Below, in pieces: positions 722 through 21,531 of a stretch of DNA of 64,000 bases. Where the stretch lies: positions 200,454 to 264,453 of the forward strand of contig NZ_LMFB01000009.1 of assembly GCF_001426685.1 (NCBI RefSeq), read 5' to 3'. The position numbers and the translations under genes were made by a program. Under the pieces are notes generated by a model. The model ran no database searches and was not told the DNA's origin. It worked only from the letters and a program-made list of their open reading frames with translations. This stretch comes from Rhizobium sp. Root483D2. GTDB taxonomy: Bacteria; Pseudomonadota; Alphaproteobacteria; Rhizobiales; Rhizobiaceae. Numbering within the stretch: position 1 is the first letter of the stretch; the number at the start of each line of letters is the position of its first letter.

Positions 722-737
722 AATACTGTCATCCGTA

Positions 738-766
738 TGAAAAAAATTCTATCGCAGTTCGTCTTT
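738..766 (+). promoter_or_regulatory. candidate ECF promoter upstream of fecR-like gene
   Basis: The element reads TGAAAA (738-743), a 16-nt spacer, then CGTCTTT (760-766). A nearly identical element with a 15-nt spacer lies before the TonB receptor gene at 1855-1882, and both copies share the 11-mer ATGAAAAAAAT. A GAAAA-type -35 and a CGTC-type -10 are typical of ECF sigma factors, so these are plausible targets of the sigma factor encoded at 209. The first copy starts 17 nt after that gene's stop codon. Confidence 0.5.
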
Positions 767-833
767 ATCCAAGAGAGGATGGTTCGGCGAGACATGTCCG
801 GCGTGACATCAGCCGATCGCTGCAGGTACGATT

Positions 834-1820
834 TTGACTGAGATTAACACCATACCGCCCGCGATCCTGGAAGAAGCCATGGACTGGTTTCTCACCCTGA
901 AGGCGCGGCCGGACTGTCGGCAGACGGAAGACGACTTTCAGGCGTGGCGATCCCGCTCGCTTGTGCATGCGCGCGCCTGGGAACAGGCGCTGAAAACCTG
1001 GACGCTGCTGGGCGAAGTGCCGCCGGTCTACGAGCATCTCTGGCGGTCTGCCCGCTCCGTTACGGCCATCCCACTAGCGCAACGCCGCCGCTGGAAGCGG
1101 TGGACGGCCGGGATCGGCGTGGCGCTTGCCGCCAGCGCGTTCCTCTTGCTTGCCGGACCATCGCTTCTGATCCGCTGGCAGGCGGATCATGTCACCAGCA
1201 CGGCCGAAACCCGAACCCTCGCGCTGGCGGATGGCACCGTCATCGAGATGGGCGCAGACAGTGCGCTTGCCACCGAGATCACGCCGTCCGCCCGCCGGGT
1301 CACGCTTCTTTCCGGCGAGGCGTTTTTCGACGTCGCGCATGACGTCTCGCGTCCGTTCACGGTCAATGCCGGCGGCGTCGCGGTTGCGGTACTCGGCACG
1401 GCGTTCGACGTCCAACTTTCGGATGACGCAACGACGGTGGAGCTTGCGCGCGGGACTGTTGCCATCTCCTACGATGGTCCGGACCACAAGCAGAATTTCG
1501 AACTTGCGCCGGGGCAGATGGCGGCAGTCGATCATAAAACCGGGGCGGTGATGCGCGATGCGATTGCGCCGGAGGATATCGCCGCCTGGAGAAGCGGGCG
1601 GATGTTTGTCAATGACATCACCGTCGGCGCGGCCACCGAGCGGTTGCAGCGCTACCATCCGGCCTGGATCAGCATACCCGACCCGGCCCTTGCCTCCCGC
1701 CGTGTGACCGGTCTCTACGATCTGAAGAACCCGGACGCAGCCCTTGAGGCGATCGTCAAACCGTTTGGCGGCAGGGTTCGCGAGGTGACACCCTACGGCC
1801 GTGTGCTCAGCCGATTTTAA
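834..1820 (+). CDS. FecR-family anti-sigma / transmembrane sensor
   Basis: Predicted 328-residue inner-membrane regulator that holds the ECF sigma factor and relays the ligand signal from the TonB receptor. It has a cytoplasmic N-terminal domain (residues 1-88, AMDWFLTLKA then a W-rich segment typical of DUF4880), one membrane helix (about 92-113), and a periplasmic FecR domain with LADGTVIEMGADS, LLSGEAFFDV and AVLGTAFDV. A C-terminal STN-like segment follows (about 255-328). The start is a TTG at 834; no better in-frame ATG precedes it. It lies 112 nt after the sigma gene with a candidate ECF promoter between, and 113 nt before the receptor gene. Confidence 0.9.
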   Translation: MTEINTIPPAILEEAMDWFLTLKARPDCRQTEDDFQAWRSRSLVHARAWEQALKTWTLLGEVPPVYEHLWRSARSVTAIPLAQRRRWKRWTAGIGVALAASAFLLLAGPSLLIRWQADHVTSTAETRTLALADGTVIEMGADSALATEITPSARRVTLLSGEAFFDVAHDVSRPFTVNAGGVAVAVLGTAFDVQLSDDATTVELARGTVAISYDGPDHKQNFELAPGQMAAVDHKTGAVMRDAIAPEDIAAWRSGRMFVNDITVGAATERLQRYHPAWISIPDPALASRRVTGLYDLKNPDAALEAIVKPFGGRVREVTPYGRVLSRF

Positions 1821-1854
1821 GCTGACAAAAACAATCAAGAAAATTCCGATTGGA

Positions 1855-1882
1855 TGAAAAAAATCGGAAGCCGGTCGTCTTT
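1855..1882 (+). promoter_or_regulatory. candidate ECF promoter upstream of the TonB receptor
   Basis: TGAAAA (1855-1860), a 15-nt spacer and CGTCTTT (1876-1882), 51 nt before the receptor start. It matches the element at 738-766 in both boxes. A short inverted repeat (TCCGATT at 1845-1851, AATCGGA at 1862-1868) overlaps it. The arms are AT-rich and no T-run follows, so it looks more like a protein-binding site than a terminator. Confidence 0.5.
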
Positions 1883-1933
1883 GGTTTGAAGCGCATGCCT
1901 GGGACGTTGCGCGGGAAACCGAGACTGAGTTAA

Positions 1934-4252
1934 ATGCGTTCGCAGACAGGCCGCAACGGCAACAGATTTTTGACAGCAAGGCATAGCCGCGCCCACGGCC
2001 TGCGCCTGCTTGCCACGTCGGCGGTCATCGCACTGACGCCGCTTAACCCGGCATCGCTCTCTCCCGCCTTCGCGCAGGACAAGACGTCCCGGCTGAACGA
2101 CACCGAAAGTTTCAACATCCCCTCCCAGCCGCTTCCCGGGGCATTAAATGCCTTCGGGCGGCAATCGGGCCTTCAGGTGACGCTTGCCGCCGCCACGTCA
2201 CGCGGCGTTCGGTCAAACGCGGTCAACGGCACGCTTGCGCCGCAGCAGGCGCTGGCACAGCTTTTGTCCGGCACTGGCATTTCCTACCAGATCACCGGCG
2301 GCACGGCCGTGATCGGCCAGGCCGCGTCCTCCGGCGATGGAACGGCAGCAGCGGCGGCGGCTGGCGCGACCGCGCTTGAACCGATCTCCGTCTTCGGCGA
2401 GAGCGGCACTCTTGGCGCCGGTGAAATCCAGATCTCTGCAAAGGATCTGGAGCGGAAGAACCCGGCCAGCATTGCCGATGTCTTTTCCGGCGAGCCGGGT
2501 ATTTCGGTCGGCAGTTCTCTGCCGATGTCGCAGAAGGTCTATGTCCACGGCATCGAGGAAAACAACCTGGCTGTGACCGTCGATGGCAGCCGCCAGAACA
2601 ACAAGGTCTTCCACCATGCCGGCACCAACCTGATCGACCCCATGCTGCTCAAGGCCGTCAGCGTCGATGCGGGCGTGGCCCCTGCCGATGCCGGTCCGGG
2701 CGCCCTTGGCGGCGCCATTGCCTATGAAACCAAGGATGCCCGCGATCTTCTCGATGGCGATGGTTTTGGTGGCTTTGTCACCTCAAGGCACAACTTCAAC
2801 AGCGATACCGTGACGACCGGAATAGCCGCCTACGGCCTCCACGAAGGCCTGGAATTCCTCGGCGCTTTCAACTTCGGAAAGGGCGACGGCTTCACGGCGG
2901 GCAACGGCGAGAATGTCGAGGGAACCAGCACAGACATCCTGAGTGGACTTGGAAAACTCGGCTACGAGTTCGACAGTGGCGACCGGATCGAAATCAGCCA
3001 TGAGCGCATCCACGATGAAGCACCCCGGCCCTATCGCGCCAATGCCGGGTTTGTCGATCCTGGACGGCCCTGGAAGGAGCCGACGATCCGCGACTATATC
3101 CTGGATCGCCAAAACACCGTGTTGACATATACGGACAGCACCCCGGAAGGCTGGTGGGATCCGAAGCTTGTGCTCGCCTATAGCAGAACCGAACTGGAAA
3201 CGACTGTTTTCCTCGACCCCCGCTTCAACATTGCGCCCTATGCGGCGATCGGCACGACCGAAAGTCTGAACGGCAAGTTCGAGAACAAATTCTCCCTCGA
3301 TATCGGCACCATCGTCGCCGGCGTCGATTTCTATAGCGACAAGGCTGATCTTGAGGATGCGTTCGATCCGGGAACCGAAAAATCCCGCAATATCGGCCTC
3401 TACGCGCAAGCCCGGATCGAGCCCTGGGACCGCACGCGGCTTTCCTTTGGTGGACGGGGCGATAGTCAAAAGTTCACCGGAACCACCGGCGAAGACTGGA
3501 ATAATTCCGGTCTTAGCGGCAATATTTCCGGCGAATACGATCTGATCGAGGATGTCCTCGTCGCCAAGGCCGGCTATTCGCATGTCTGGGCGGGCCCTAC
3601 ACTCGCCGAAAACTTCGTTGTGAACCCCAGATGGGACTATGGCGACGGGCCGAAGCCTATTACGGCGGATAACTACAATATCGGGCTGGAAGCCAACTAT
3701 AATGGCTTTACGATTGAAGGCAGCGTCTTCCAGACAAGGCTCGATGATGCCCGAGCCCCACGTTTTGCAATCGCGCGCGCGATCGAGACGCATGACGTCC
3801 GCTCAAGCGGCTTTGAAATTGGCGGCGGCTATAGCTGGGGCGACGGCTTCTTCACGGTGAAATACGCTGATATCGATGTGGAAATCGATGGAAAGCCGGC
3901 CGATTCCGATATCGGCACCTATCTCGCCGCACCGGCGGGCCAGATCATCACCGTGCAGGCGGTACATACCTTCACGGATTGGGGTATCACGCTCGGCGCC
4001 GACACAGAAATCGCGCTCGACTATGATCACGTAGCGCCAGGCAGCAAACCCTATGAGAGCTACCAGGTCTTCAACGCCTTTCTTGAGTACAAGCCACCAA
4101 CCCGGCCGAACCTGACATTCAGGGCGGACATCAAGAACATCTTCGACGAAACCTATTCCGACCGCGCAACCTATGGCCAGGAATTTGCCAACGTGGTCCC
4201 GCTCTATGAGCAGGGCCGCGCCTTCATCCTGACCGCAAGGGCGACGTTCTGA
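1934..4252 (+). CDS. TonB-dependent outer-membrane receptor with STN signalling domain
   Basis: Predicted 772-residue outer-membrane ferric-siderophore (or heme-type) receptor. The N-terminus has a signal peptide with cleavage near residue 48 (after AFA). A secretin/TonB short N-terminal domain follows (about 55-125; FNIPSQPLPGALNAF, LLSGTGISYQI), which contacts FecR in signalling receptors. Then comes a plug domain (about 145-270; VYVHGIEENN, DAGPGALGGAIAYET) and a 22-strand-type beta-barrel ending in the usual terminal Phe. It sits directly after the fecI/fecR-like pair and before siderophore biosynthesis genes, so the simplest inference is uptake of the petrobactin-like product. The plug also resembles heme/hemophore receptors, so the ligand is not certain. 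Confidence 0.88.
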   Translation: MRSQTGRNGNRFLTARHSRAHGLRLLATSAVIALTPLNPASLSPAFAQDKTSRLNDTESFNIPSQPLPGALNAFGRQSGLQVTLAAATSRGVRSNAVNGTLAPQQALAQLLSGTGISYQITGGTAVIGQAASSGDGTAAAAAAGATALEPISVFGESGTLGAGEIQISAKDLERKNPASIADVFSGEPGISVGSSLPMSQKVYVHGIEENNLAVTVDGSRQNNKVFHHAGTNLIDPMLLKAVSVDAGVAPADAGPGALGGAIAYETKDARDLLDGDGFGGFVTSRHNFNSDTVTTGIAAYGLHEGLEFLGAFNFGKGDGFTAGNGENVEGTSTDILSGLGKLGYEFDSGDRIEISHERIHDEAPRPYRANAGFVDPGRPWKEPTIRDYILDRQNTVLTYTDSTPEGWWDPKLVLAYSRTELETTVFLDPRFNIAPYAAIGTTESLNGKFENKFSLDIGTIVAGVDFYSDKADLEDAFDPGTEKSRNIGLYAQARIEPWDRTRLSFGGRGDSQKFTGTTGEDWNNSGLSGNISGEYDLIEDVLVAKAGYSHVWAGPTLAENFVVNPRWDYGDGPKPITADNYNIGLEANYNGFTIEGSVFQTRLDDARAPRFAIARAIETHDVRSSGFEIGGGYSWGDGFFTVKYADIDVEIDGKPADSDIGTYLAAPAGQIITVQAVHTFTDWGITLGADTEIALDYDHVAPGSKPYESYQVFNAFLEYKPPTRPNLTFRADIKNIFDETYSDRATYGQEFANVVPLYEQGRAFILTARATF

Positions 4253-4365
4253 CCGGCTGATTGCATCGCCGGTCCGGCGATGCGCGAAAGACGAGAGTGG
4301 GAAACCGGCGAAACATCGCCGCAGGCCGCTCTCCAAGACCCAAAGTCGAAAGACAGGAGTTCCAG

Positions 4366-4656
4366 ATGCAAGAAGCGACAACCCGTTTTACGACGGAAAA
4401 CGGCCAGAAATATCTGACCCAGCTCTGCAAGCATTTCGGCCACAAGATCGACGTCACCCAAGCGGACGATCAGGGCGAGCTCAGATTTTCCTGCGGAACA
4501 GGATATCTTCAAGCCGATCCGGATGGCCTCAACATCCGGGTGCAGTCGCCCGACGAGGCCAATCTGACTGACACCAAATCTGTGGTCGAGGATCACCTCC
4601 TGCGGTTCGCGTTCCGGGAAAACAGCGGCCCGCTTCTGTGGCAGCCGCCCGGCTGA
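4366..4656 (+). CDS. DUF2218-family protein
   Basis: Predicted 96-residue soluble protein. The ATG at 4366 follows a good ribosome-binding site (GACAGGAG at 4351-4358), so it is preferred over the longer in-frame start at 4264. The pattern (RFTTENGQKYLTQLCKHF, then FSCGTGYLQAD and a C-terminal HLLRFAFRE) fits the DUF2218 family. Family members often sit beside siderophore genes and TonB receptors, but no biochemical role is established that I know of. Its place between the receptor and asbA supports a link to iron acquisition. No catalytic residues are evident. Confidence 0.72.
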   Translation: MQEATTRFTTENGQKYLTQLCKHFGHKIDVTQADDQGELRFSCGTGYLQADPDGLNIRVQSPDEANLTDTKSVVEDHLLRFAFRENSGPLLWQPPG

Positions 4657-4747
4657 CGGTCGAAGAGACCAATCGAACTCATCCATGAATTTCATCGCGT
4701 TGGATGACAACGCTCTTGCGCGGCTCCGCGTGCCGAGGAACGACACG

Positions 4748-6532
4748 ATGCAATCGTCTAGGCAAATCGCAGAAATGGCGACCTTTCAGAGTTTTGCCAA
4801 TTGCTATCTGCGCGAAGTGAATGCCGGCACATCGGTGCTGCACAGGACAGCGGCTGGCCCGGTGGATTGCATCGAATGGTCGCTGCCCCGCCAGCAGATT
4901 ATCCTTCGCGCCGAGATTACCTCAACGTCCCTCTGCGGCCCGCAGCATTTCGGCCGGGTCTGGTGCAGGGGCGCTTCGGACGCGATCTGGCGGCCGCTCG
5001 AGCTGATCTCCGCACTTCACAGCCTCATCCACGAATCCTATCGCCAGGCGGACGAGGGACAGGCCGATGTTCTGCGCGGCTTTGAACTCGAACTGCTGAT
5101 GCGTGTGCTGCAAAGCTATCAGCAGACTGCACTGTTCATCGAAAAGGCGGACCCGGTTCCGGCCGATGGAGATCACTTTATCGAGGCCGAACAGTCGCTC
5201 GTGTTCGGCCATTGGCTGCACCCGACCCCGAAGAGCCGGCAGGGCATGACGTTTTGGCAGCAGGAAAGCTACGCGCCGGAATTGCGCGGCCAGTTCAAGC
5301 TGCATTACTTTGCCGCCAAAATGGACCATGTCCGCCATGCCTCGGCGCGGCCGGTGGCAGCCCCCGATATCGTCCTCTCCTTAGCAGATAGCGCCGGCGA
5401 ACCCCTTGCCGCCGGGCACGACGAATACCTGCTGCCCATGCATCCCCTCCAGGCAGAGGCCCTGCTGCTCGATCCGGACATCCAGGCCATGCAACACAGT
5501 GGGAGCCTGCGCCATCTTGGCCCGGCCGGTTCACCGTTCACGGCGACCTCGTCCGTCCGCACCGTCTATAGCGGCGATAAGGACTGGATGCTGAAATTCT
5601 CGCTTCCAGTTCGCATCACCAATTCGCTTCGCCTCAACCGGCGCCAGGAGCTGGAAGCCGGGGTCGCGATGGCCAAGCTGATCGACCGGATCGGTTTTGC
5701 GCGGCGGTCGAAACACTTCCAGATCATCCAGGACCCGGCCTATATCACGCTCGACATTCCCGGCCGCAGCGAAAGCGGATTTGAGGTGATCCTGCGCGAA
5801 AACCCGTTTTCAGGCGACAGGGGCAAAGGCATCATCACCGTCGCCGCCCTGACCGCCGATCCTGTTGCGGGCGAACTGTCCCGGCTGGAACGCCTTATCC
5901 GCAACATCGCCATGCGCGACGGCGAGACCGTGTCCGATGCCGCGCTCGTCTGGTTTCAGCATTATCTCACCTGCGCAGTCGAACCGCTGATCAGGCTTTA
6001 CGACGATTATGGTATCGCGCTGGAAGCGCATCAGCAAAACAGCCTGCTGGAAATCGGAACCGGCTATCCCACCGTCAGCTATTATCGCGACAACCAGGGC
6101 TTCTATCTGTCCGAACGCTACCGCAGCCTTTTGTCAGGCCATGTTCCCGAAACGGAAGCCATAGGCTCCCTCTATTTCCCGGAGGCGGAAATCCGCGACC
6201 GGTTCGCCTATTACTTGATCGTCAATCAGGTGTTTTCAATCATCAGCCGCATGGGACATGACGGGCTGTGCGGCGAAGGGCAGCTGTTGCGGATGATGCG
6301 CGCGCATCTCGAACGCTGCGCACACGGCATGACCGGCGCTGGCCGGGATTTCGCCCGCCACGTTCTCGACCTGCCGACCATTGCGTCGAAAGCCAACCTG
6401 ACGACGCGGCTGTTCGATGTCGATGAGTTGCAGTCGGACAATGCGCCGTTGCTTTACCGTCCCATGCCCAACCCTTTGAGAGGGCCGGCAGCACTGACCG
6501 TTGCAAGGACCAGCCATGCCATTGCCTCTTGA
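4748..6532 (+). CDS. asbA: AsbA-like NIS siderophore synthetase (IucA/IucC family)
   Basis: Predicted 594-residue NRPS-independent siderophore synthetase. In petrobactin synthesis AsbA condenses spermidine with citrate in an ATP-dependent reaction. The protein opens with SSRQIAEMATFQSFANCYLR and carries FIEAEQSLVFGH, HPTPKSRQGM, LLPMHPLQAEALL, MLKFSLPVRITNSLR, ALEAHQQNSLLE and YYRDNQGFY. These blocks match remembered Bacillus AsbA closely, and the length is near its roughly 600 residues. The start at 4748 is chosen because similarity begins there and a GAGGA box lies 8 nt upstream; an in-frame ATG at 4685 is the alternative. Its end overlaps asbB by 17 nt, indicating translational coupling. 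Confidence 0.9.
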   Translation: MQSSRQIAEMATFQSFANCYLREVNAGTSVLHRTAAGPVDCIEWSLPRQQIILRAEITSTSLCGPQHFGRVWCRGASDAIWRPLELISALHSLIHESYRQADEGQADVLRGFELELLMRVLQSYQQTALFIEKADPVPADGDHFIEAEQSLVFGHWLHPTPKSRQGMTFWQQESYAPELRGQFKLHYFAAKMDHVRHASARPVAAPDIVLSLADSAGEPLAAGHDEYLLPMHPLQAEALLLDPDIQAMQHSGSLRHLGPAGSPFTATSSVRTVYSGDKDWMLKFSLPVRITNSLRLNRRQELEAGVAMAKLIDRIGFARRSKHFQIIQDPAYITLDIPGRSESGFEVILRENPFSGDRGKGIITVAALTADPVAGELSRLERLIRNIAMRDGETVSDAALVWFQHYLTCAVEPLIRLYDDYGIALEAHQQNSLLEIGTGYPTVSYYRDNQGFYLSERYRSLLSGHVPETEAIGSLYFPEAEIRDRFAYYLIVNQVFSIISRMGHDGLCGEGQLLRMMRAHLERCAHGMTGAGRDFARHVLDLPTIASKANLTTRLFDVDELQSDNAPLLYRPMPNPLRGPAALTVARTSHAIAS

Positions 6533-8249
6533 TCTCAAAGGGCAGCCCGGTGAGCGGGTGTTGCGCCAACTCGTGGCCGCCCTCCTCTACGAAGGTGTCA
6601 TCGACGCCAGGCAAAGCGTTGACGGCGGGCTGACGCGCTTCCAATGGACATTGGGTGGCCGCTCCTACCGGTGCAGCGGGTCCGTTGGACCATTCGGACG
6701 CATTCGCCCGATGGCCGGATCGATAGAGGTCGAGGATGGCGGTATCTGGGGCGAAGTCTCGACCGCTCAATTCGTCTCCGCCCTGCCCGGTACGGGCATG
6801 GCCCGCGGCAAGCTTCTCGGCGAGATGACGCAGACGATTGGCTTTTCAGAGTGGAATGATCGCCACATCGCCCCCCGGCAACGCCGCTCCATGTCTTTTT
6901 CCGCGCTGGAAGGCGCGCTGGACGAAGGCCATCCCTATCACCCCTGCTACAAGGCAAGGACCGGATTTTCCGAGGCCGATCACGCCGCCTATGGCCCGGA
7001 AACCGGCAACGTCTTCCAACTGGTCTGGCTGCTCGTGGCCCGCAAGCATCTTCGCCATGCCTTGCCGGAGGAGGAGGCCATTTTCTGGAAAACCGAACTC
7101 GGTGACGAAACATGGATACATCTGCAAACGATGCAGGCGCAACTCGGCCTGTCAGCGGAAGACTTCGGGCTGGTGCCGCTGCATCCTTGGCAATGGCGCA
7201 ATCTCGCTGAAACCTTGGGTGACGGCTGGATCAGCGCTGGCGAGGCCCATTGCCTCGGACCGGCCGGAGATCGCTACACCGCAACGCAATCGGTGCGCTC
7301 GCTCTTGAACCAGGACCGCCCGCTTGCAGCCAGCATCAAGCTGCCGCTCAACATGATCAACACCTCGTCGCGGCGCACGCTGGAGCCGCACTCGGTGTGC
7401 ACCGCACCGGTGCTCTCGCGCTGGATCGCCGGTATCGTCGAGGGCGATCCGCTGTTCCGTGACCGGTATCCACTCACTGTCCTGCAGGAATATGCCGGGA
7501 TCATCGCCGATGCCGACGGCCCGCTTGCAGGCCAGATCGGCGCAATCTGGCGGCAGAATGCGCAGGCAACGCTGTCGCCGGGCGAGGCGCTCATTCCCTT
7601 CAACGCCCTGATGATGGTCGAGGCGGATGGCAGGCCATTTGCGGGCGACTGGATCCAGCGTTTCGGCCTGATGGCATGGATGAACCGGCTGATCGAAATC
7701 TCCGTCCTGCCCGTCTGGCATCTGCTTGTCCATCATGGCATCGCCGTGGAGGCTCATGGCCAGAACATGCTTCTGGTCCACCGTGACGGCTGGCCGGTAC
7801 GCCTGATCCTGCGCGATTTCCACGACAGCATGGAATTTTGCCCGGCTTTCCTGCGCGAGCCCGCAAAGGCCCCGGATTTCCTCTCCCTGAACCCGCTCTA
7901 CCGTCAGGCCGAGCCGGACCAATATTACTGGACAGACAATCTGGATTCGCTCCGCGAACTGGTGATGGATACGCTGTTCGTCTACAATCTCACCGAAATT
8001 TCCCACCTGCTCGACCATTGCTACGACCTGCCGGAACAGCGTTTCTGGCAGCGGGTCGAAAGCCTCCTGTCGTCCTACGCCGTTGAGCACGAAGCTATGG
8101 AACGGCAGGCGCAGCTTGGCCACGACCGGCCCCATATCCTCACTGAATCCCTGATGACGCGAAAGCTGTTCGCGCTGAAGCCTGAGTACCACCACACGGT
8201 GCCCAATGCCTTGGCGGCCGATCAGCTGCAACGAAGGAGAAAGCCATGA
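6516..8249 (+). CDS. asbB: AsbB-like NIS siderophore synthetase (IucA/IucC family)
   Basis: Predicted 577-residue second IucA/IucC enzyme. In the petrobactin pathway AsbB attaches the second spermidine or spermidinyl-catechol arm to the citrate intermediate. Blocks seen are ERVLRQLVAALLYEGVI near the N-terminus, EGHPYHPCYKARTGF, VPLHPWQWRN, LNMINTSSRRTLEPHS, VEAHGQNMLLVHRDG and LILRDFHDSMEF, all in the order of Bacillus AsbB. The ATG at 6516 is used; a TTG at 6501 would add five residues. It overlaps asbA upstream and asbC downstream (ATGA), so it sits inside one operon. Confidence 0.9.
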   Translation: MPLPLDLKGQPGERVLRQLVAALLYEGVIDARQSVDGGLTRFQWTLGGRSYRCSGSVGPFGRIRPMAGSIEVEDGGIWGEVSTAQFVSALPGTGMARGKLLGEMTQTIGFSEWNDRHIAPRQRRSMSFSALEGALDEGHPYHPCYKARTGFSEADHAAYGPETGNVFQLVWLLVARKHLRHALPEEEAIFWKTELGDETWIHLQTMQAQLGLSAEDFGLVPLHPWQWRNLAETLGDGWISAGEAHCLGPAGDRYTATQSVRSLLNQDRPLAASIKLPLNMINTSSRRTLEPHSVCTAPVLSRWIAGIVEGDPLFRDRYPLTVLQEYAGIIADADGPLAGQIGAIWRQNAQATLSPGEALIPFNALMMVEADGRPFAGDWIQRFGLMAWMNRLIEISVLPVWHLLVHHGIAVEAHGQNMLLVHRDGWPVRLILRDFHDSMEFCPAFLREPAKAPDFLSLNPLYRQAEPDQYYWTDNLDSLRELVMDTLFVYNLTEISHLLDHCYDLPEQRFWQRVESLLSSYAVEHEAMERQAQLGHDRPHILTESLMTRKLFALKPEYHHTVPNALAADQLQRRRKP

Positions 8250-9526
8250 TCAAGATCGATGACAGGCTTTACGACAACGCCTATTTCGAAAAAACCTCGG
8301 CCCGCCTGACGGAGCAAACCGGCCTTTTATCGCGCGATGGCGGCCGCTACGCGGTGTGTTTTGCGGAAACGGTGGACTGGCTGTCGCTGTTTTTCGCCAT
8401 CCGCACGGCCGGCGCCAGCGTCCTGCCGATCCATCCCGGCACGCCCTATGCCGCCGCCCGCAAGCTTGCCATCGGCGCCGGCTGCGACCGGCTGTTTTAC
8501 AACAGCCTGACAGCGGACGTGCTCGATGCACCGTCGGTATCTTTTGAGAAAGGCCAGCTTCTGCAGATGAGCTCCGGCACGACCGGCGCGCCAAAATGCG
8601 TGGCGCGGAACTGGGACGAGATCGACGCCGAGATCGAAAGCTATGTCCGCGCATTCGCAGAGCCGGAAGATATGACCCCGGTCGTCGCCTGCCCGGCCAC
8701 CCATTCCTATGGGCTGATCTGCGGTATTCTCGTGGCGCTGAAGCGCGGCCAGGTGCCGGTGGTCGTCAATACTGCCAATCCGAAATATCTCCTGAAAATT
8801 CTGCGCGAAACCGAACGGCCGCTGCTCTATTCGTCACCGGCGATCCTGCACACGCTCGCCCGGCTGTTGCCGCAGGATGAGCAGATCCACGCAACCATGA
8901 CATCCGGCACGCTGTTGCCCGATGCCTGGTTCTCGCTGATCCGCGCGAAAAGCCAGCACATGTTCCAGCAATATGGCTGCTCTGAAGCGGGTTGCATCGC
9001 CATCAACCCCGACGTGACCGCAACGGGAGACATGGGGTTCGTCCTGCCGCATCTGACGGCCGAAACGGGCGGTAGCGCCGATGACGCTGGCGAGATCGTG
9101 GTGAAGAATGCGGCCGGCAGCGTGATCCACACGCGCGACCTCGGCTATCTCAGCGATAACGGCATGCTCGTCTTCATCTCCCGCATGGACGACATGATCA
9201 ACGTCTCCGGATTGAACGTCTATCCGAAAGATGTCGAGGACGCCGTCATGATCATGCCCGATGTCACCGACGCCGTTGCCTTCCGCAAGGCGGACCGGTT
9301 CGCCGGCGAGCGTGTCGCGCTGCTGTTCAGCGCCAGCCAAAGTCTGGCACCGCAGTCGGTGCGCGAATGGTGCAGCCGGCATCTGGCCAGCCACCAGTTG
9401 CCGATGGAGATCCTGCAGGTCGACGCCATTCCGCGCCAGGCAAACGGCAAGATCAGCCGCCGCGACGTGGCGGAACGCCATGCTGCAGGCGAGTTTGCAA
9501 CACCTTCCGCCGGAGCGGCATCATGA
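8246..9526 (+). CDS. asbC: AsbC-like 3,4-dihydroxybenzoate:carrier AMP ligase
   Basis: Predicted 426-residue adenylate-forming enzyme (ANL superfamily) that would activate 3,4-dihydroxybenzoate and load it on the carrier domain encoded next. Visible are the P-loop-like motif QMSSGTTGAPKCV, the A5-type FQQYGCSEAGCIAIN, the A7/A8 region HTRDLGYLSDNGMLVF followed by SRMDDMINVSG, and the late lysine motif RQANGKISRR. It is shorter than typical NRPS A-domains and close to Bacillus AsbC (about 412). It overlaps both neighbours by 4 nt (ATGA at each end). The substrate is inferred from the adjacent dehydroshikimate dehydratase, which makes the 3,4-isomer rather than 2,3-dihydroxybenzoate. Confidence 0.87.
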   Translation: MIKIDDRLYDNAYFEKTSARLTEQTGLLSRDGGRYAVCFAETVDWLSLFFAIRTAGASVLPIHPGTPYAAARKLAIGAGCDRLFYNSLTADVLDAPSVSFEKGQLLQMSSGTTGAPKCVARNWDEIDAEIESYVRAFAEPEDMTPVVACPATHSYGLICGILVALKRGQVPVVVNTANPKYLLKILRETERPLLYSSPAILHTLARLLPQDEQIHATMTSGTLLPDAWFSLIRAKSQHMFQQYGCSEAGCIAINPDVTATGDMGFVLPHLTAETGGSADDAGEIVVKNAAGSVIHTRDLGYLSDNGMLVFISRMDDMINVSGLNVYPKDVEDAVMIMPDVTDAVAFRKADRFAGERVALLFSASQSLAPQSVREWCSRHLASHQLPMEILQVDAIPRQANGKISRRDVAERHAAGEFATPSAGAAS

Positions 9527-10836
9527 CCCAGAGCGAAATCCTCACCGCCATCCATACGGTTTTGAGTGAACATATGCAGCATGCGCATCTCGACGGCTTC
9601 GGTCCCGATGCGCGCCTGAACGAGGACCTCTACCTCGATTCCGTGCTGATCCTGCAGATTTTCCTCAATCTCGAGCTGGAATACGGCCTTTCCGTTCCGG
9701 AAGAGGCGATCGCCAAGCAGGATATTGAGACCGTCGCCGATCTGGTTGCGCTGTACCATCAGGGCGATGCCACGGCCGTGGTCCCGGCGTTTGCCCTCAC
9801 CGGCGGCACCAGCGACGAAGGCGTACATGGAGAGGCCTATTACGACATCAAGGTTCACTGCTTCGTCAGTTGCGTCTGCGACGGCCTGAAGCGCCGGGGC
9901 CTTGATCACAGGCCGTTCTACTTCGGTGTCTGGGACGCACAATTTGCCATCGGCGACCGGTTCGAACTGCTCTATCACGCCCCCGGGATCACCCAGGAAT
10001 TCCTGCATGGATGGTTCCAGCGGCTTTATGGCGTCGCGGTTCGGGAGTGGTACGATCCTGAAAGGACCAAGATCGAAAACCTGGCGTCGCTGCTCGACCT
10101 CCTTCAGAACCGTAGCGACACCGGGTCCGTCATGGTGATGCTGGACATGTTCCACCTGCCGGAGCGCGAAAACAAGTTCAACCAGAACCCGTTCCCGCAT
10201 TACCTGATGCTCCAGGAAACCGGCGATCCGCAAACCTGGTTCGTGCACGATCCCGATTATCGCTGGGAAGGCGAGATCGCGCGCGAAAAGGTCATTCACG
10301 CCATCATGCAGCCCACCGTCGGCGGTGGCTACGTCTTCGACAGTACGCAAGCGCGAACGCCCGAACCGGACGATCTCAAAGCCTATTTCGAAGCCTGCTT
10401 CGTGAGAGAGACGAACCCGCTCGTCGATGCGGTGCGCACCATCGTCACGGCACATCTTGCCAGAGACGGCGGCATAACATTGTCCGGCCTGACGGCTGCA
10501 GTGCGCGAACTGCCCGTCATCACCATCCGCAAATATGCCTATGAGCACGGCTTCGCCTTCTTCTGGCGCGCGCTGAAACTGCCGGCCGCGGAGTTTGAAA
10601 CATGGTGCGAGGAGATCGAAGCGCTGGTGCAATCGCTCAAGACGCTGCACTACGCCTGCATGAAACTCTCCCAGACCGGAGATCGCGCGCTTTCCGCGCC
10701 AGTGTTCGAAAGGCTCGACGAGGCCGGCCGGCTGGAGACCAGGCTGAAAGACAAACTGGCGGAGATCTTCGATCTCTGGTGCGAACAGAATGTTGCGCCG
10801 CGCGTCAATGTCACAATGCTGAAAAGGGCCGTCTGA
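9523..10836 (+). CDS. asbDE: AsbD-AsbE fusion: aryl carrier protein + spermidine acyltransferase
   Basis: Predicted 437-residue protein joining two petrobactin functions that are separate genes in Bacillus. Residues 1-85 are a carrier domain like AsbD, with RLNEDLYLDSVLILQ giving the phosphopantetheine serine at Ser40. A short Ala/Gly/Thr linker (about 86-103) follows. Residues 104-437 resemble AsbE, which transfers 3,4-dihydroxybenzoate from the carrier to spermidine. The second part shows HCFVSC (Cys113, Cys117), PHYLMLQE (His226) and FVHDPD (Asp243/245). Their order fits a papain-like BtrH-type acyltransferase triad; that mechanistic reading is my inference. The ATG at 9523 lies in the asbC stop (ATGA), and the gene ends 1 nt into asbF (TGATG). 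Confidence 0.85.
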   Translation: MTQSEILTAIHTVLSEHMQHAHLDGFGPDARLNEDLYLDSVLILQIFLNLELEYGLSVPEEAIAKQDIETVADLVALYHQGDATAVVPAFALTGGTSDEGVHGEAYYDIKVHCFVSCVCDGLKRRGLDHRPFYFGVWDAQFAIGDRFELLYHAPGITQEFLHGWFQRLYGVAVREWYDPERTKIENLASLLDLLQNRSDTGSVMVMLDMFHLPERENKFNQNPFPHYLMLQETGDPQTWFVHDPDYRWEGEIAREKVIHAIMQPTVGGGYVFDSTQARTPEPDDLKAYFEACFVRETNPLVDAVRTIVTAHLARDGGITLSGLTAAVRELPVITIRKYAYEHGFAFFWRALKLPAAEFETWCEEIEALVQSLKTLHYACMKLSQTGDRALSAPVFERLDEAGRLETRLKDKLAEIFDLWCEQNVAPRVNVTMLKRAV

Positions 10837-11681
10837 TGCGAGTTTCGCTTTGCACCATCACCTTTCGTCACCATCTCATCTCGCTCGGTGAAATCGCCGC
10901 CTGGGCGCAGTCCAACGATTTCCAGGGCATCGAGCTCTGGGGCGCACATGCGCGCAATCTAGCACAGCAGCCGGACCGCAACGCGGAATGGCTGGACGGT
11001 TTCGGGCTTTCGGTGCCGATGATCAGCGACTATCTGCCTGTTGATGCCGATCCCGAAACCTTGCGCCTCAAGACCGTGGAACTATGCAGGCTCGCCCGCC
11101 GCTGGCGAACGCGGAAAATCCGCACATTTGCCGGCAATCGCGGCAGTCTTGCCACATCGGCCGAAGACCGGCGCGTGATGGTCGAACGGCTGCACGATAT
11201 CTGCGCCATCACCGCCAGCTATGGCATCCACCTGCTGGTGGAAACCCACCCGCAAACATTGGCCGATACTGCCGGCTCCACCCTGCAACTGATCGCCGAG
11301 GTCGATCATCCCTTCTTCTCCATCAACTATGACAGTTTACATGTCTGGGAAAGCGGCGCCGACCCCGTCACCGTGCACCGCGAGATGAAGCCGCATATCC
11401 GTCACTATCACCTGAAGAACATTCGCGACCGGTCCGATCTTTCCGTGTTCGAACCCGCCAACGTCTATGCCGCCGCAGGACGGCGCACTGGCATGACGCC
11501 GCTGTTTGAAGGTGCTGTCGATTACACCACCTTTCTCGCCGAGCTGTCCGGCGATCCACAGATCGATGCCTCGCTGGAATGGATCGGCAACGATTGCCTC
11601 GACATCCTACGGCGCGACCGGCGGCAGGTACGGCAGGTGATCGACCGGCGTGAACCTTTACGGCGGACAGTCAATTTTTAG
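10836..11681 (+). CDS. asbF: AsbF-like 3-dehydroshikimate dehydratase
   Basis: Predicted 281-residue TIM-barrel enzyme converting 3-dehydroshikimate to 3,4-dihydroxybenzoate (protocatechuate), the catechol of petrobactin. It matches Bacillus AsbF (about 280 residues) throughout: SLCTITFRHHLISL at the N-terminus, GIELWGAHARNL, KIRTFAG, HVWESGADPV, HYHLKNI and NVYAAAGRRTGMTPLFEG. The metal-binding residues by pattern are Glu136 (LLVETHP), Asp166 (NYDSLH), His192 and Glu248 (SLEWIG). The start ATG overlaps the upstream stop (TGATG); a longer upstream reading would run into the asbDE coding region and is rejected. This is the strongest single marker for 3,4-catecholate chemistry in the operon. 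Confidence 0.92.
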   Translation: MRVSLCTITFRHHLISLGEIAAWAQSNDFQGIELWGAHARNLAQQPDRNAEWLDGFGLSVPMISDYLPVDADPETLRLKTVELCRLARRWRTRKIRTFAGNRGSLATSAEDRRVMVERLHDICAITASYGIHLLVETHPQTLADTAGSTLQLIAEVDHPFFSINYDSLHVWESGADPVTVHREMKPHIRHYHLKNIRDRSDLSVFEPANVYAAAGRRTGMTPLFEGAVDYTTFLAELSGDPQIDASLEWIGNDCLDILRRDRRQVRQVIDRREPLRRTVNF

Positions 11682-12134
11682 GATGGTGGCGAGGCGGAAA
11701 CTGACGATCGCTCTGGCCGCTGCGCAATGGGCGGTTGCCTTCATGGCCACGGCGGGGCCGGTGACGATCAACATGACCATGGAGGGCGATAATCTTCTCC
11801 AGCGTAACATCAGACAGCACTTGGGGTTGCCGAAGTGCTTCGCTATGCCGTCAGCGATGACTATTGCCATGATCTTCCTATTTTACAGCGCCGCCCGTCA
11901 ACCCAAAAGGGATCGAACTCTTCGCCAAAATCATCGATCAGTTCCAACGAATAAAGCGCTGCCGCGTCATCTCTAAGAAGATTAAACCGGCAACGGCATT
12001 TCGGTTGCATTTACTGCAAGTCCTTAGCAGATAATTACAATAATACTGTGGAAACGCGCCGTGACAAGCCGCCGCCCATTCCCCCTTTCCCAAGCGGACT
12101 GTACAACACCTCTAGTATAAGTTGAGGGGCAGGG
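11682..12134 (+). other. intergenic region between asb operon and T2SS operon
   Basis: No convincing gene is seen in 453 nt. An open frame from about 11683 to 11976 begins with a hydrophobic stretch (KLTIALAAAQWAVAFMATAG) but has no recognisable family, and its second half is basic and low-complexity. At 11917-12030 a second frame (IELFAKIIDQFQRIKRC, then VISKKIKPATAF) faintly resembles the C-terminus of IS5-type transposases, suggesting a decayed insertion element. The 100 nt before gspD are AT-rich in part and should contain the T2SS promoter, but I could not pick -35/-10 boxes with confidence. Confidence 0.35.
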
Positions 12135-14249
12135 GTGCTTACGATTCGGGTTGGCTTCAGCATGGTTCTCGCCGTGCTGGCGGGGTGTGCCTCGGAAAAT
12201 AGCGATGATAAGTGGGCGTCGTTGATGGAAGGTGTCGAGCGGCCGCGGGCGCATGACGCGCGCGGTTATCCGAATTCCAACGTGATCAAGGGCGGCACGG
12301 TCACGGGCTCGACGCCGGCGGGATTTGCGCAGATCGGCAGTGGCGAGTTTACCGGACAGTCCATGTCGTCGGTGACGGGTGGTGCGGCGGCGGATGGGTC
12401 CGAAGGCTATACGATCAATCTCGTCGATGCGCCGGTGGCTTTGGCGGCCAAGAAAATCCTTGGCGACATCATGGGATATACCTATCTCGTCGATCCCAAG
12501 GTTACCGGCACGGTGACATTGCAGACCAGCCATGCGATGTCGAAACAGAGCCTTTTGGATATCCTTGAAGTATCTTTGGCCGCCAATGGCGCAGCGATCG
12601 TCAAGAAGGCGGACCGCTACGAGATCGTGCCCTATTCCGAGGCAACGGCATCGAACGCGATCATCAGCGGCGGCCGTCTGCCGAAGAACGAGCCGGGCAT
12701 GAAAGTTCAGGTTCTGCAGCTGAAATATATCGCAGCCGACGAGATGCGCGACATCATCGAGGAGGTGAGCAAGAAGGGTGCGGTGCTGCGCACCGACCCT
12801 GCCCGCAACTATATCGTTGTCGCTGGCAACAATGGCGAGCTTTCTGCTATCCGCGAAGCGATCTCGGTCTTCGATGTCGACTGGATGAAGGGCATGTCGA
12901 CGGCACTCTATCCTTTGAAGGCTTCGCAGCCGCAGGAACTGGTGAAAGAGCTCAATTCGGTGTTCGGGGCGGACGCTGGTCCCAACTCCAAAACGATCCG
13001 TTTCATCCCCAATACCCGTCTGAACGCGGTCCTTGCGATCACGTCGCGCCCGGCCTACCTGCCTAAGGTCTCCGCCTGGATCGCCAAGCTCGACAAGATC
13101 GCGCAAACCAATGAGGAGCAGCTGTTCGTCTACGAGATCCAGAACCGGCCGGCGGCGGAACTGGCAAAAGTGCTGCAGAACGTGCTCGCCAGCGCCAAAT
13201 CGAATGGCGGGACTATGGCTAGGCCAAGCCCGGTGGCACCCGATCTCGTTGCCGATACGATGCAGAGCGAGGGTGTCGATTATTCTCCGGAAGCCCAGGT
13301 CGAGAGCGAACCCGCCCTTTTGACAAGCGGCACTGTTCCATCCGTCGTTGCCGATACGGAAAACAACGCGCTGCTAATCTCCACCAATGCCCGCGAATAT
13401 CAGAGGATCGAGCAGATCCTGCGCCAGCTCGACGTTCTGCCAACCCAGGTCTTCCTCGAAGCTGTCATTGCCGAGGTGACGCTGAACGACGAACTCAAGT
13501 TCGGCCTTCGCTGGTATCTGGAAAACGGTAACCATTCTCTGGGCCTGTCAGATCTGGCATCCGGCGCGGTCACGGCGGCATTCCCCGGCTTTAACTGGAC
13601 CCATGTTTCTGCCAACGCCCAATCGGCCCTGTCGGCACTCTCAAGTGTGACCAAGGTCAAGGTGATCTCGTCGCCAAACCTGATGGTCATCAACAACCAG
13701 CAAGCGAAGTTGCAAGTCGGCGATCAGGTTCCCGTCATCACCCAGACAAGCACCAGCACGGAATCGGCCAACGCCGTCATCATCAACTCCGTCGAAATGA
13801 AGGATACAGGCATCATCCTCTCGGTCACGCCCCGGATCAACAGTTCCGGCCGGGTGATGCTCGATATCCAGCAGGAGGTCAGCAATGTCGTTGCGACCAC
13901 CACGTCGGGGATTGATTCGCCGACGATCCAGCAGAGAAAGATTGCGACCCGCGTCGTCGTTCATGACGGGGAGAGCCTGGCACTCGGTGGATTGATCCAG
14001 GAGAAGAAATCCCTCAACCAGAGAAAGGTGCCGGTGCTCGGCGATATCCCGCTGCTCGGCAATGCGTTCAAGTCGAAGACCGATGGCATCAACCGCACCG
14101 AGCTGATCATCTTTATCCGTCCGCGCATCGTCCGCGATAGCGAGGAGGCGCGTCAGGCGACCGACGAGTTCCGCCAGCAGTTTGATTTTGGAGACAGCGA
14201 TACGCCCGGCAAGCGCATGAAGCGCGATCTCATCCGGTTGGCAAACTAG
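12135..14249 (+). CDS. gspD: Type II secretion system secretin GspD
   Basis: Predicted 704-residue outer-membrane secretin forming the exit pore. A lipoprotein signal peptide is visible (SMVLAVLAGC, lipid-modified Cys18), so it may reach the outer membrane without a separate pilotin. The N0/N1 domains start near residue 93 (INLVDAPVALAAKKIL). N2 and N3 repeats follow (VQVLQLKYIAADEMRDI; LNAVLAITSRPAYLP; VYEIQNRPAAELAKVL). The C-terminal secretin core has VFLEAVIAEVTL, LQVGDQVPVIT and GLIQEKKSLNQRKVPVLGD. The start is GTG at 12135 after GAGGGGCAGG. It heads a tightly packed T2SS operon; the next gene begins immediately after its stop. Confidence 0.94.
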   Translation: MLTIRVGFSMVLAVLAGCASENSDDKWASLMEGVERPRAHDARGYPNSNVIKGGTVTGSTPAGFAQIGSGEFTGQSMSSVTGGAAADGSEGYTINLVDAPVALAAKKILGDIMGYTYLVDPKVTGTVTLQTSHAMSKQSLLDILEVSLAANGAAIVKKADRYEIVPYSEATASNAIISGGRLPKNEPGMKVQVLQLKYIAADEMRDIIEEVSKKGAVLRTDPARNYIVVAGNNGELSAIREAISVFDVDWMKGMSTALYPLKASQPQELVKELNSVFGADAGPNSKTIRFIPNTRLNAVLAITSRPAYLPKVSAWIAKLDKIAQTNEEQLFVYEIQNRPAAELAKVLQNVLASAKSNGGTMARPSPVAPDLVADTMQSEGVDYSPEAQVESEPALLTSGTVPSVVADTENNALLISTNAREYQRIEQILRQLDVLPTQVFLEAVIAEVTLNDELKFGLRWYLENGNHSLGLSDLASGAVTAAFPGFNWTHVSANAQSALSALSSVTKVKVISSPNLMVINNQQAKLQVGDQVPVITQTSTSTESANAVIINSVEMKDTGIILSVTPRINSSGRVMLDIQQEVSNVVATTTSGIDSPTIQQRKIATRVVVHDGESLALGGLIQEKKSLNQRKVPVLGDIPLLGNAFKSKTDGINRTELIIFIRPRIVRDSEEARQATDEFRQQFDFGDSDTPGKRMKRDLIRLAN

Positions 14250-14732
14250 ATGGAGACGACAGAGATCAGCGTTCTGTTGCTTCTGGCGGTTCAACTGGCG
14301 GTGATTGCCATGATCGATCTGCGCAAGCTTGTCATTCCGGATCTGTGCAACATTGTGTTGGCCGCAACTGGATTGGCTGCGCATTGGCTACTCGGCAGTT
14401 TTGACCCGGTCCGGATTTCACTTGGAATACTCGTATTCGCAGGAACGTTTTCACTGGTTCGTTTCGTCCATTTTCGGGCAAGAGGCCAGATCGGCCTTGG
14501 ACTGGGCGATGTCAAAATGGCCGCTGCCGCGGGATGCTGGATCACGATTGCCAGTTTTCCGCTGTTTCTGGCGGTTTCCAGCCTCAGCGCGTTGGCATTC
14601 GCCCTGCTGACGCTTCCTTTCTGGAAGAAGGGTGCGCGGATGCAAAGAGTTCCGTTCGGCCCATTTCTCTCCGCCGGACTGTTGCTGACCTTTGTCTTTG
14701 AACTCAACTCCATCTCCGTTTTGATTGTCTAG
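14250..14732 (+). CDS. gspO: A24-family prepilin peptidase, short form (GspO-like)
   Basis: Predicted 160-residue integral-membrane aspartic protease that would process the pseudopilins GspG, H, I, J and K. The two active-site aspartates are visible: Asp23 in MIDLRKLVIPD and Asp87 in GLGLGDVKMAAAAG, with a conserved FGPFL near the C-terminus. It lacks the N-terminal zinc/N-methyltransferase domain of classical GspO/PilD, so it resembles the CpaA/TadV short form. It should cleave but may not N-methylate. The ATG follows the gspD stop with no gap and the gene abuts gspG. Confidence 0.85.
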   Translation: METTEISVLLLLAVQLAVIAMIDLRKLVIPDLCNIVLAATGLAAHWLLGSFDPVRISLGILVFAGTFSLVRFVHFRARGQIGLGLGDVKMAAAAGCWITIASFPLFLAVSSLSALAFALLTLPFWKKGARMQRVPFGPFLSAGLLLTFVFELNSISVLIV

Positions 14733-15203
14733 GTGCCGTCGATGATGCGTATGCTCTCCTCCCGTTTCCAAATGTTCAGGGCAAGGCGAAAGCGGTCTGC
14801 CGAACTGGAGGCTGGTTTCTCGCTGGTGGAGCTTCTTGTCGTTTTGGCGATCATCGCCATGACCACCGCAATCGTCGCTCCCCGCGTCCTTGGCTATCTC
14901 GGCTCCGCACGAACCGATAGCGCCAAGGTTCAGGTGAAAAATCTCGAAAGCGCGCTTGAACTCTATTTTCTGGATTCGGGCCGGTATCCGACACAGGAAG
15001 AGAGCTTGGCGGCTCTTTCAACCCGTCCAGCAGGCAGTCCTGTCTGGAACGGCCCCTATTTGAAGGATGCCGGAGATCTGAGGGATCCTTGGGGCAACGT
15101 CTACCAGTACCGGGCTCCGGAGGGTGACACTTCCTTTGCTGTGATTTCGCTGGGGAGGGACGGCAAAACAGGGGGCGAAGGGGAAGACCGTGACATCCCT
15201 TAG
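14733..15203 (+). CDS. gspG: Type II secretion major pseudopilin GspG
   Basis: Predicted 156-residue major pseudopilin. After a basic leader of about 27 residues comes the class III prepilin site G|FSLVELLVVLAII with Glu at +5. The globular part has the GspG signature NLESALELYFLDSGRYPT, then GPYLKDAGDLRDPWGNVYQY and a Gly/Glu/Asp-rich C-terminus like the calcium-binding end of GspG. GTG at 14733 directly follows the gspO stop; ATG at 14742 is an alternative start giving a leader three residues shorter. It overlaps the next gene by 14 nt. Confidence 0.93.
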   Translation: MPSMMRMLSSRFQMFRARRKRSAELEAGFSLVELLVVLAIIAMTTAIVAPRVLGYLGSARTDSAKVQVKNLESALELYFLDSGRYPTQEESLAALSTRPAGSPVWNGPYLKDAGDLRDPWGNVYQYRAPEGDTSFAVISLGRDGKTGGEGEDRDIP

Positions 15204-16227
15204 CGCATCGCCATCCTTTTCGCGCCTGAGCGACGGCTGCCTCGATTTCTTCGTCTGGTGGCAGAACGAGATGCTGCAGATGCGGCCGCACCTGCCCTGG
15301 AGAAAGACGAAACAACGGGATCAACGTCAGGTCGTGATCGGCAAGTCCGGCTTCTCGCTTGATGGTGGCGCCTTCCAGCCCCTGTCAACGATGGGTGAGA
15401 CGTTGCTCGCATTGAAGGCGGCCGGAGATTTTCAGGATGACGCGATCCGACTTGTTCTGAATGACACAAGATATCTCGAACGGACCATTTCACACCGGCG
15501 GCTTCCGCTATCGATCTTGAAACGGGCTGCCGAGCTGGACATCCTCACGGAAACGCCATTCCGCGTCGAAGACGTCAAAATTCTTCTGTCAGAGCCGCAC
15601 AAACGCGATGCCACCTATTTCATTTTACGGCGTGACGTCATTGACGAGTTGAGAACGCAATTTCGGCATGCCGGGGTTGAGGTCTCCGGTATTTATCTGG
15701 GATCCGGGCAGGTCGAGGTACTCTCCGGCTTGCGGCCGGCAGATTTTTCGCAACGGCCGCACCGGGATATTCGCCGGACACTCAACTGGCTTCTTGCACT
15801 TTTGATTGTTCTTGGCTGCTTGTTTTGCGCTTACCAGGTTCAGCAAAAGACATCTACCGCAGCGGCCGTGCTTGAGGTTGAAATCGGCGAGGCCAGCAAA
15901 CAGGCGCATGCCGCCCGGGCCCGTTACGATCAATATGCGAAAAAATCCCAGCAGTTGCAGGCGCTCAAACAGTCGAAAAAGCTGGAGGTGGTCAAGGCTT
16001 GGGAAGAACTCAGCCGCATTCTTCCTGACACCGCATTCCTGACTGATCTGACCATCAAGGACGAGAGAGTTGCAATAGCCGGCTTCTCGGAAAAACCGGC
16101 AACGCTGATCGGCAGTATCGAGGCAAGCGCCTTGTTTCAACGGGCGCAATTTACATCTCCTGTGGTGAAGGTTCCGGGATTCGCCGGGGATAATTTTCAC
16201 ATTTCATTCGAGCAGGAAGAGCAATAG
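15190..16227 (+). CDS. gspL: GspL-like / PilN-type inner-membrane assembly protein
   Basis: Predicted 345-residue bitopic inner-membrane protein. Residues 1-190 form a cytoplasmic domain (ActA-like fold expected; RLPLSILKRAAELDILTE, then TYFILRRDVIDEL). A single membrane helix lies at about 198-216 (LNWLLALLIVLGCLFCAY), and the periplasmic part is coiled-coil then ferredoxin-like (SRILPDTAFLTDLTI), as in PilN/GspL. It would link the GspE ATPase to the pseudopilus base. The GTG start at 15190 lies inside the end of gspG. The assignment rests on topology and operon position more than on sequence motifs. Confidence 0.75.
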   Translation: MTSLSASPSFSRLSDGCLDFFVWWQNEMLQMRPHLPWRKTKQRDQRQVVIGKSGFSLDGGAFQPLSTMGETLLALKAAGDFQDDAIRLVLNDTRYLERTISHRRLPLSILKRAAELDILTETPFRVEDVKILLSEPHKRDATYFILRRDVIDELRTQFRHAGVEVSGIYLGSGQVEVLSGLRPADFSQRPHRDIRRTLNWLLALLIVLGCLFCAYQVQQKTSTAAAVLEVEIGEASKQAHAARARYDQYAKKSQQLQALKQSKKLEVVKAWEELSRILPDTAFLTDLTIKDERVAIAGFSEKPATLIGSIEASALFQRAQFTSPVVKVPGFAGDNFHISFEQEEQ

Positions 16228-16228
16228 A

Positions 16229-16810: not shown

Positions 16811-16819
16811 GGAGATCGA

Positions 16820-21055: not shown

Positions 21056-21531
21056 TGAAACCGAGGGCCTCCGCACCAGCGACGGCGACAGCAGGCTTTA
21101 GCCTAATAGAAATGCTGGTCGTCCTGGCGATTGTTTCGGCGGTCGCGGGGATCGCAGCCGTTTCGGTACATCAGGTCCGAAATGGCAGGTCGCCTTACAC
21201 CTATGCGGCCGATATCGCCGGGAGCATGACGGCGCAACGATATCGCGCCATGAACACCGGGCGCATTCAAACATCGGACATTGATATCGAAAGAAAGACA
21301 ATCTCCAATTCAGGACAAAGGGGACGCATCGCGATTCCTAAAACATGGGACTTTTCGGTCACGATCGGCCGTGGCCCAACACCGGGAGAAACCGTTCCGC
21401 AGATCATATTCCTCCCGGATGGCACCTCGTCTGGCGCAGAAATCACGGTTCGAAACCAGAGTGGTGAGGCAGCTTATGTCCGTGTCAATTGGTTGACCGG
21501 ACTGACGGAATATTCTCGCAATGCGTTCTGA
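21052..21531 (+). CDS. gspH: Type II secretion minor pseudopilin GspH
   Basis: Predicted 159-residue minor pseudopilin with prepilin site G|FSLIEMLVVLAIV (Glu at +5) after a 14-residue leader. The C-terminal globular part has IIFLPDGTSSGAEITVRN, typical of the GspH/FimT beta-sandwich ('F.pdG.s.gg.i.l'). The ATG overlaps the gspF stop, and the end overlaps gspI by 11 nt. Confidence 0.9.
   Translation: MMKPRASAPATATAGFSLIEMLVVLAIVSAVAGIAAVSVHQVRNGRSPYTYAADIAGSMTAQRYRAMNTGRIQTSDIDIERKTISNSGQRGRIAIPKTWDFSVTIGRGPTPGETVPQIIFLPDGTSSGAEITVRNQSGEAAYVRVNWLTGLTEYSRNAF

Follow-up and report, generated by a model that had tools for sequence, protein, structure and literature searches.

Does a petrobactin-type operon in a soil rhizobium make petrobactin? 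The question is raised by a 64,000-nucleotide stretch of Rhizobium sp. Root483D2 (contig NZ_LMFB01000009.1, positions 200,454 to 264,453; G000:C9:200454-264453 in a host assembly of 6.04 Mb and 44 contigs), hereafter the window, in which five overlapping plus-strand genes at 4748-11681 almost certainly form an asb operon, judged by the similarity of their predicted products to characterized Asb proteins. Petrobactin needs spermidine; the gene content of the host points to homospermidine. The explanation that best accounts for the locus as a whole is an iron-regulated, cell-surface-signalled operon that would make and take up a petrobactin-family siderophore with unacetylated homospermidine arms, a reading to which we assign a probability of about 0.72.

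The identity of the five genes follows from profile and structure-sequence searches, none of which places them outside the Asb set. The first encodes an AsbA-type NRPS-independent siderophore (NIS) synthetase (4748-6532; PF04183, PF06276), an IucA/IucC protein whose top solved structure is IucA, in a PDB listing that held no solved AsbA. The second encodes AsbB, likewise a NIS synthetase (6516-8249; PF04183, PF06276), for which the best solved match is AsbB itself (PDB 3to3, E 3.3e-98) and the next IucC (E 1e-44). AsbC, the ligase that forms the AMP ester of 3,4-dihydroxybenzoate (3,4-DHB), lies at 8246-9526 (PF00501) and exceeds the NF006167 cut-off of 513 with a score of 564.9 bits. AsbD and AsbE form a single frame (9523-10836), a fusion of aryl carrier and aryl transferase domain as in the rhodopetrobactin cluster: the transferase half matches PF19468 (DUF6005) with 493 bits, while the carrier half has 'petrobactin biosynthesis protein AsbD' as its top NCBIfam model, at 72.9 bits under a model cut-off of 100, with the carrier serine (Ser40, in the motif DSV) invariant in an alignment of relatives. 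The last gene encodes the 3-dehydroshikimate dehydratase AsbF (10836-11681), whose sole PDB match at E<=0.001 is the solved AsbF (3dx5, E 3.4e-77). Each of the five frames is open from ATG to a single stop, with starts taken from the annotated copy in Pararhizobium qamdonense, and neighbours share 17, 4, 4, and 1 bases.

An earlier note on this DNA had described an asbABCDEF set of five overlapping genes; its coordinates, order, and content are correct, except that D and E are one gene and that the upstream genes of the system, at 209-4656, had been left out. The note also read the locus as a rhizobial asb operon of the petrobactin family whose AsbF predicts a 3,4-catechol, and this is supported. 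The four residues that it named as metal ligands of AsbF (E136, D166, H192, E248) are indeed retained, together with H138, H169, and K194, and align by count with E142, D172, H198, and E253 of the solved enzyme; Glu142, Asp172, and Glu253 are metal ligands there and His198 is product-binding (PMC9324987), so that by this source the four named residues are three metal ligands plus one. H138, H169, and K194 likewise correspond to active-site residues given in that paper. By these search statistics the similarity of the window genes to the Asb set is far beyond chance, and the locus is an ordinary, intact case of a siderophore system known from rhizobia, and well explained as such.

Which triamine the operon would use is best approached through the polyamine genes of the host. 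The host encodes homospermidine synthase (Hss; PDB match E 2.4e-238). Its sole match to the model for NspC, the carboxynorspermidine/carboxyspermidine decarboxylase, reaches 22.6 bits and is LysA, diaminopimelate decarboxylase (482.2 bits vs a cut-off of 297.9); a search of the host genome for S-adenosylmethionine (AdoMet) decarboxylase, which left SpeE (PF01564) outside its scope, gave no match. Because the host has Hss and neither decarboxylase was detected, homospermidine arms are the likeliest, and genome content makes them probable. The idea of a variant polyamine arm, raised in the earlier note, has thereby gained support.

The same pattern extends across relatives. Of 394 Rhizobiaceae genomes sampled, 38 have DUF6005 (three with scores of only ~310 bits), as do 9 of 26 genomes of the window's own genus. 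The 38 and four more from that genus give 42 asb-positive genomes, one of which (G405:C1:2958446-2959395) has a DUF6005 split between two frames, the pieces overlapping, which may reflect either decay of the copy or a fault of assembly. Hss is present in all 42, NspC in 10 (at least 397 bits, all others at most 35), and AdoMet decarboxylase in three, leaving 31 with neither decarboxylase. A second set was drawn from the asb loci themselves: a scan of genome contigs gave 241 AsbDE relatives, of which the best 80 were taken and joined with nine plasmid loci to make 89 (L numbers), and 50 genomes of named loci were chosen by us from the 80, in partial overlap with the first set. Hss is found in 49 of these (all but Oceanimonas), NspC in 20 (at least 387 bits), and AdoMet decarboxylase in four; 27 have neither decarboxylase. 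Sinorhizobium fredii USDA 205 has Hss only of the three enzymes. So do Rhodopseudomonas infernalis and four Methylobacterium/Methylorubrum genomes, which serves as a sanity check, since relatives of these make products of homospermidine type and rhodopetrobactin contains homospermidine (PMC7857480); homospermidine has also been tied in the literature to the linker of methylolanthanin. Most rhizobia, unlike S. meliloti, are described as lacking spermidine as a soluble polyamine (PMC13293326). Polyamine genes hardly ever lie beside asb: among the 89 loci and the window none has Hss there, and CANSDC and SpeB are found only in Leisingera sp. S132, where a carboxynorspermidine decarboxylase and an agmatinase directly 5' of asb (L011:505-2531) constitute a polyamine supply module.

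The state of the amines is suggested by a missing acetyltransferase. The GNAT acetyltransferase (Pfam) of the rhodopetrobactin and methylolanthanin clusters occurs in 8 of the 89 loci, all of Methylobacterium, Methylorubrum, or Rhodopseudomonas, and a search at E<=1e-3, confined in the host to the 64-kb window, gave no relative there. Since the window has no rhodopetrobactin-type GNAT match, the predicted product has free secondary amines, and the likeliest product is unacetylated homospermidine petrobactin, C36H54N6O11, with a computed [M+H]+ of 747.392 vs 719.361 for petrobactin; for rhodopetrobactin B the computed value, 831.4135, is not reconciled with the 831.4228 printed in PMC13251462. 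In S. fredii the product seems to have been assigned by chrome azurol S (CAS) assay and mutants only (PMC8822346), and a word search finds no mention of mass spectrometry, liquid chromatography-mass spectrometry, or spermidine in the main text of PMC8822346 or PMC12815270. The searched literature, which covers few subscription journals and so is no proof that the compound is unpublished, holds no name for an unacetylated homospermidine petrobactin.

Upstream of asbA, four further plus-strand genes belong to the asb system. They encode an extracytoplasmic function (ECF) sigma factor of FecI type (209-721; Pfam Sigma70_r2 and r4_2, and the annotation of the P. qamdonense locus, L003), for which a GTG start at 167 is possible and the ATG at 209 is the start equivalent in the annotated relative; a FecR anti-sigma/signal transducer (834-1820; PF04773 and DUF4880, with NF007296 below its cut-off); an FprA-like TonB-dependent receptor with an N-terminal STN signalling domain (1934-4252; PF00593, PF07715, PF07660); and a 96-residue DUF2218 protein (4366-4656; PF09981), a companion of asb clusters equivalent to mllG / c14010. 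In the last, H23, H26, H77, R80, and E85 are invariant in 21 aligned rows, and a solved relative is PDB 2jpi, a hypothetical protein (E 1.1e-21). All nine genes from sigma factor to asbF (209-11681) are intact reading frames, and the order fecI-fecR-fprA-DUF2218-asb of the S. fredii-type operon is present in the window.

From the families of these proteins and the S. fredii system, a course of synthesis, regulation, and uptake may be drawn onto what is seen directly at this locus, namely gene identities and order, promoter-like elements, polyamine gene content, and a fatB remnant. AsbF would convert 3-dehydroshikimate to 3,4-DHB, which AsbC would adenylate and load onto the carrier half of AsbDE; the AsbE half would transfer it to one end of the triamine, most likely homospermidine, and AsbA and AsbB would attach two such arms to citrate, the arms remaining unacetylated to give homospermidine petrobactin. 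The ferric complex would enter through the TonB receptor encoded at 1934, whose STN domain may signal via FecR to the sigma factor and thus to matching promoters before fecR and the receptor gene, with RirA as the putative repressor when iron is in excess.

The candidate sites for this circuit are a 27-base sigma-type promoter-like element 5' of the receptor gene (1856-1882, plus strand), a second such element 5' of fecR (738-764, ends approximate, plus strand) that agrees with the first in 15 of 18 positions, and a RirA-box-like palindrome, TGA-N9-TCA, before the receptor gene (1823-1837, plus strand). Since the receptor promoter of the window supplied the motif, the 18/18 found there is no test; among 51 loci with sigma factor, FecR, and receptor, the window included, 15 have at least 15/18 before fecR and at least 16/18 before the receptor gene, where shuffled stretches reach at most 10 to 14. 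A strict RirA box precedes the receptor gene in the window and in seven more loci of this set of 51 (L066, a distant one, and six that are Pararhizobium-like), and a RirA-like box is kept in place in L003, L012, L013, L014, L023, and L050; in many Neorhizobium-like loci the box lies before the sigma gene instead. Over the whole window, RirA-like boxes number 27 vs 14.8 expected, a count reached by 1 of 100 shuffles and deemed not significant, for which reason only the box kept in relatives was used. Taken as predictions from sequence, the promoter elements and the RirA box agree with the published S. fredii circuit.

Downstream, the locus carries the trace of an importer. In six reference relatives fatBDCE lies directly 3' of asbF; in the window nothing of it was found there beyond a 37-base plus-strand fragment at 11763-11799, which matches fatB, the gene for the periplasmic ferri-siderophore binding protein, in all six reference loci (blastn, E 4e-7 to 7e-4), a reversed control sequence giving no fatB match. 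The corresponding spacer of P. qamdonense has no fatB match better than E 0.025. Because this fragment remains 3' of asbF, the usual importer genes were probably deleted here. About 150 kb further on the same contig, a FatB-like protein (41% identity to FatB) is encoded together with a receptor, an ATPase, and two FecCD permeases, a set that could substitute for FatBDCE.

Several points weigh against the explanation preferred here, and some of them would suit a rival product: petrobactin of the usual kind, built on spermidine that is taken up or comes from a pathway outside the models used. The cell may take up spermidine from plant or soil, Hss may form some of it from other diamines, and AsbA/AsbB may accept several triamines. 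As NspC is encoded in 10 of the 42 asb-positive genomes and in 20 of the 50, the operon occurs together with spermidine too; a second saccharopine-dehydrogenase-family protein of the host (L093), classed to family only, could be half of a carboxyspermidine route, for which no decarboxylase partner was found. The scopes of the AdoMet decarboxylase and GNAT searches count in the same direction, as does the draft state of the host assembly (44 contigs, 99.95% complete by tool estimate), and the evidence from the RirA box is uneven, since the strict box of the window has no counterpart before the receptor gene in the scan of S. fredii USDA 205 (L016). The Asb set is moreover the same as that of petrobactin producers, and the S. 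fredii product is termed petrobactin in PMC8822346 and PMC12815270; yet neither decarboxylase was found in this host or in S. fredii USDA 205, and the main text of those papers, in which the assay was CAS (PMC8822346), makes no mention of mass spectrometry or spermidine. Spermidine arms are thus unlikely, while deserving to be taken seriously.

A siderophore like rhodopetrobactin, in which an acetyltransferase encoded elsewhere acetylates the homospermidine amines, would fit the presence of Hss in the host and the D-E fusion and DUF2218 that the rhodopetrobactin and methylolanthanin clusters also have (PMC11317620), but with the GNAT confined to the eight Methylobacterium, Methylorubrum, and Rhodopseudomonas loci and none in the window, to which the search in the host was limited, we consider it very improbable. 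The same low standing is given to a decaying or silent cluster, in which loss of fatBDCE begins the loss of the whole system: it could draw on the fatB fragment, on the P. qamdonense locus likewise without fat genes, and on the split DUF6005 of G405, but the nine window genes are intact and 95-100% identical in protein sequence to those of P. qamdonense, and another set of TonB receptor, binding protein, permease, and ATPase is available on the same contig. Unacetylated homospermidine petrobactin, made by a working operon, remains the preferred reading.

The presence of the operon in a rhizobium has precedent. The earlier note had supposed that a rhizobial copy would mean horizontal transfer or an under-reported distribution; the same operon is already known from S. 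fredii CCBAU45436 and Ensifer adhaerens Casida A, where published work covers mutants and regulation, and Asb orthologues have been reported from 245 alphaproteobacterial genomes (PMC8822346). In a quick tree (LG+G4) of 52 loci, the window and 51 of the 89, built on the joined sequences of AsbA, B, C, and DE and leaving out AsbF and any Bacillus sequence, the window pairs with P. qamdonense (support 100) within a Pararhizobium-like group of seven rows (100), itself in a group of 15 rows with S. fredii and Ensifer (99). As this tree largely follows rhizobial taxonomy around the window, recent transfer into the host is not needed to explain the locus; it was rejected as a candidate also in view of the GC content of the region at 4-12 kb (58-62%), which is within the range of the window. 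Larger-scale transfer of asb between bacteria has been argued in PMC8822346.

The core of the operon is constant and its surroundings vary. A, B, C, and DE are all present in 88 of the 89 loci; 86 of these have D and E fused in one frame, the exceptions (L006, L091) being the same plasmid, and relatives of the receptor occur in 70, of DUF2218 in 65, of FatB in 59, and of the GNAT in 8. No asbF was found in the fetched stretch of 23 of the 88 (L005, L021, L028-L032, L038, L044, L060, L061, L063-L066, L070-L072, L074, L075, L078, L082, L085), Neorhizobium galegae and Peteryoungia groups among them; the contig of L072 ends at DE and that of L060 has 4.4 kb left, and among 60 of the 72 rows listed for the N. 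galegae plasmid record none is AsbF. Because asbF was not found there, these loci would have to draw their aryl acid from elsewhere or use a different one. AsbB and AsbC are one frame in nine of the 88 (L007, L042, L046, L048, L049, L083, L084, L086, L087); some are of Methylobacterium type, for which the fusion has been published (mllBC), and others belong to Shinella and 'Roseateles sp. XES5'. The last (L007, NZ_CP084754.1, UNVERIFIED_ORG) falls inside Shinella in the Asb tree and, like Shinella records, matches the window at ~84% DNA identity across 39% of a 25-kb stretch; its Roseateles label is probably wrong. An Ensifer subgroup (L015, L017-L019, L022, L043) has asb without relatives of sigma factor, FecR, receptor, or DUF2218 in the fetched stretch; NspC is present in all four members searched (L015, L017, L018, L022).

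Among known systems, the closest is that of P. qamdonense T808 plasmid p2, which has the same gene order, 95-100% identity over the nine proteins, and no fat genes. Its asb genes are followed 3' by minCDE, whereas in the window a type II secretion-like cluster (secretin GspD, GspE, F, PilN) lies directly 3' of the operon at 12135-22556; on p2 the type II secretion cluster is ~108 kb from asb, which implies a rearrangement between the two strains. At the S. fredii USDA 205 locus the genes from the sigma factor through asbF stand in the order of the window and its promoter-like elements recur, with 75-85% identity for receptor, DUF2218, and Asb proteins and 70-76% for FecR and sigma factor; it differs in having fatBDCE where the window has only the fatB fragment. 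The rhodopetrobactin (Rhodopseudomonas) and methylolanthanin (Methylobacterium) clusters have the D-E fusion, also described for roseobactin, as well as DUF2218, there mllG, and sigma factor, FecR, and TonB receptor (PMC11317620), and their genomes, where searched, have Hss like the host; they differ in carrying the GNAT and are more distant in the tree, and in methylolanthanin B and C are fused, while they are separate in the window. The asbABCDEF of Bacillus and Marinobacter, compared via PDB entries only, has the same six functions in the same order, with AsbB and AsbF as best solved matches; against it, the window has the D-E fusion, a Gram-negative receptor, sigma regulation, and likely another polyamine.

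The operon itself thus adds one more example to a siderophore system reported from rhizobia; what is new here is the chemical prediction of the homospermidine arm. We give even odds to a broader claim: that many rhizobial 'petrobactin' operons, this one and by extension that of S. fredii, make a distinct, undescribed, unacetylated homospermidine petrobactin, and that the polyamine diet of the host, not the Asb enzymes, sets the arms, so that one operon yields different siderophores across hosts. If rhizobial asb operons do use homospermidine, the siderophore that governs how soybean rhizobia nodulate and compete bears the name of a different compound, the specificity of receptors and the cheating among soil bacteria would call for a new interpretation, and the sets of 42 and 50 genomes would allow a test of whether siderophore type goes with polyamine type.

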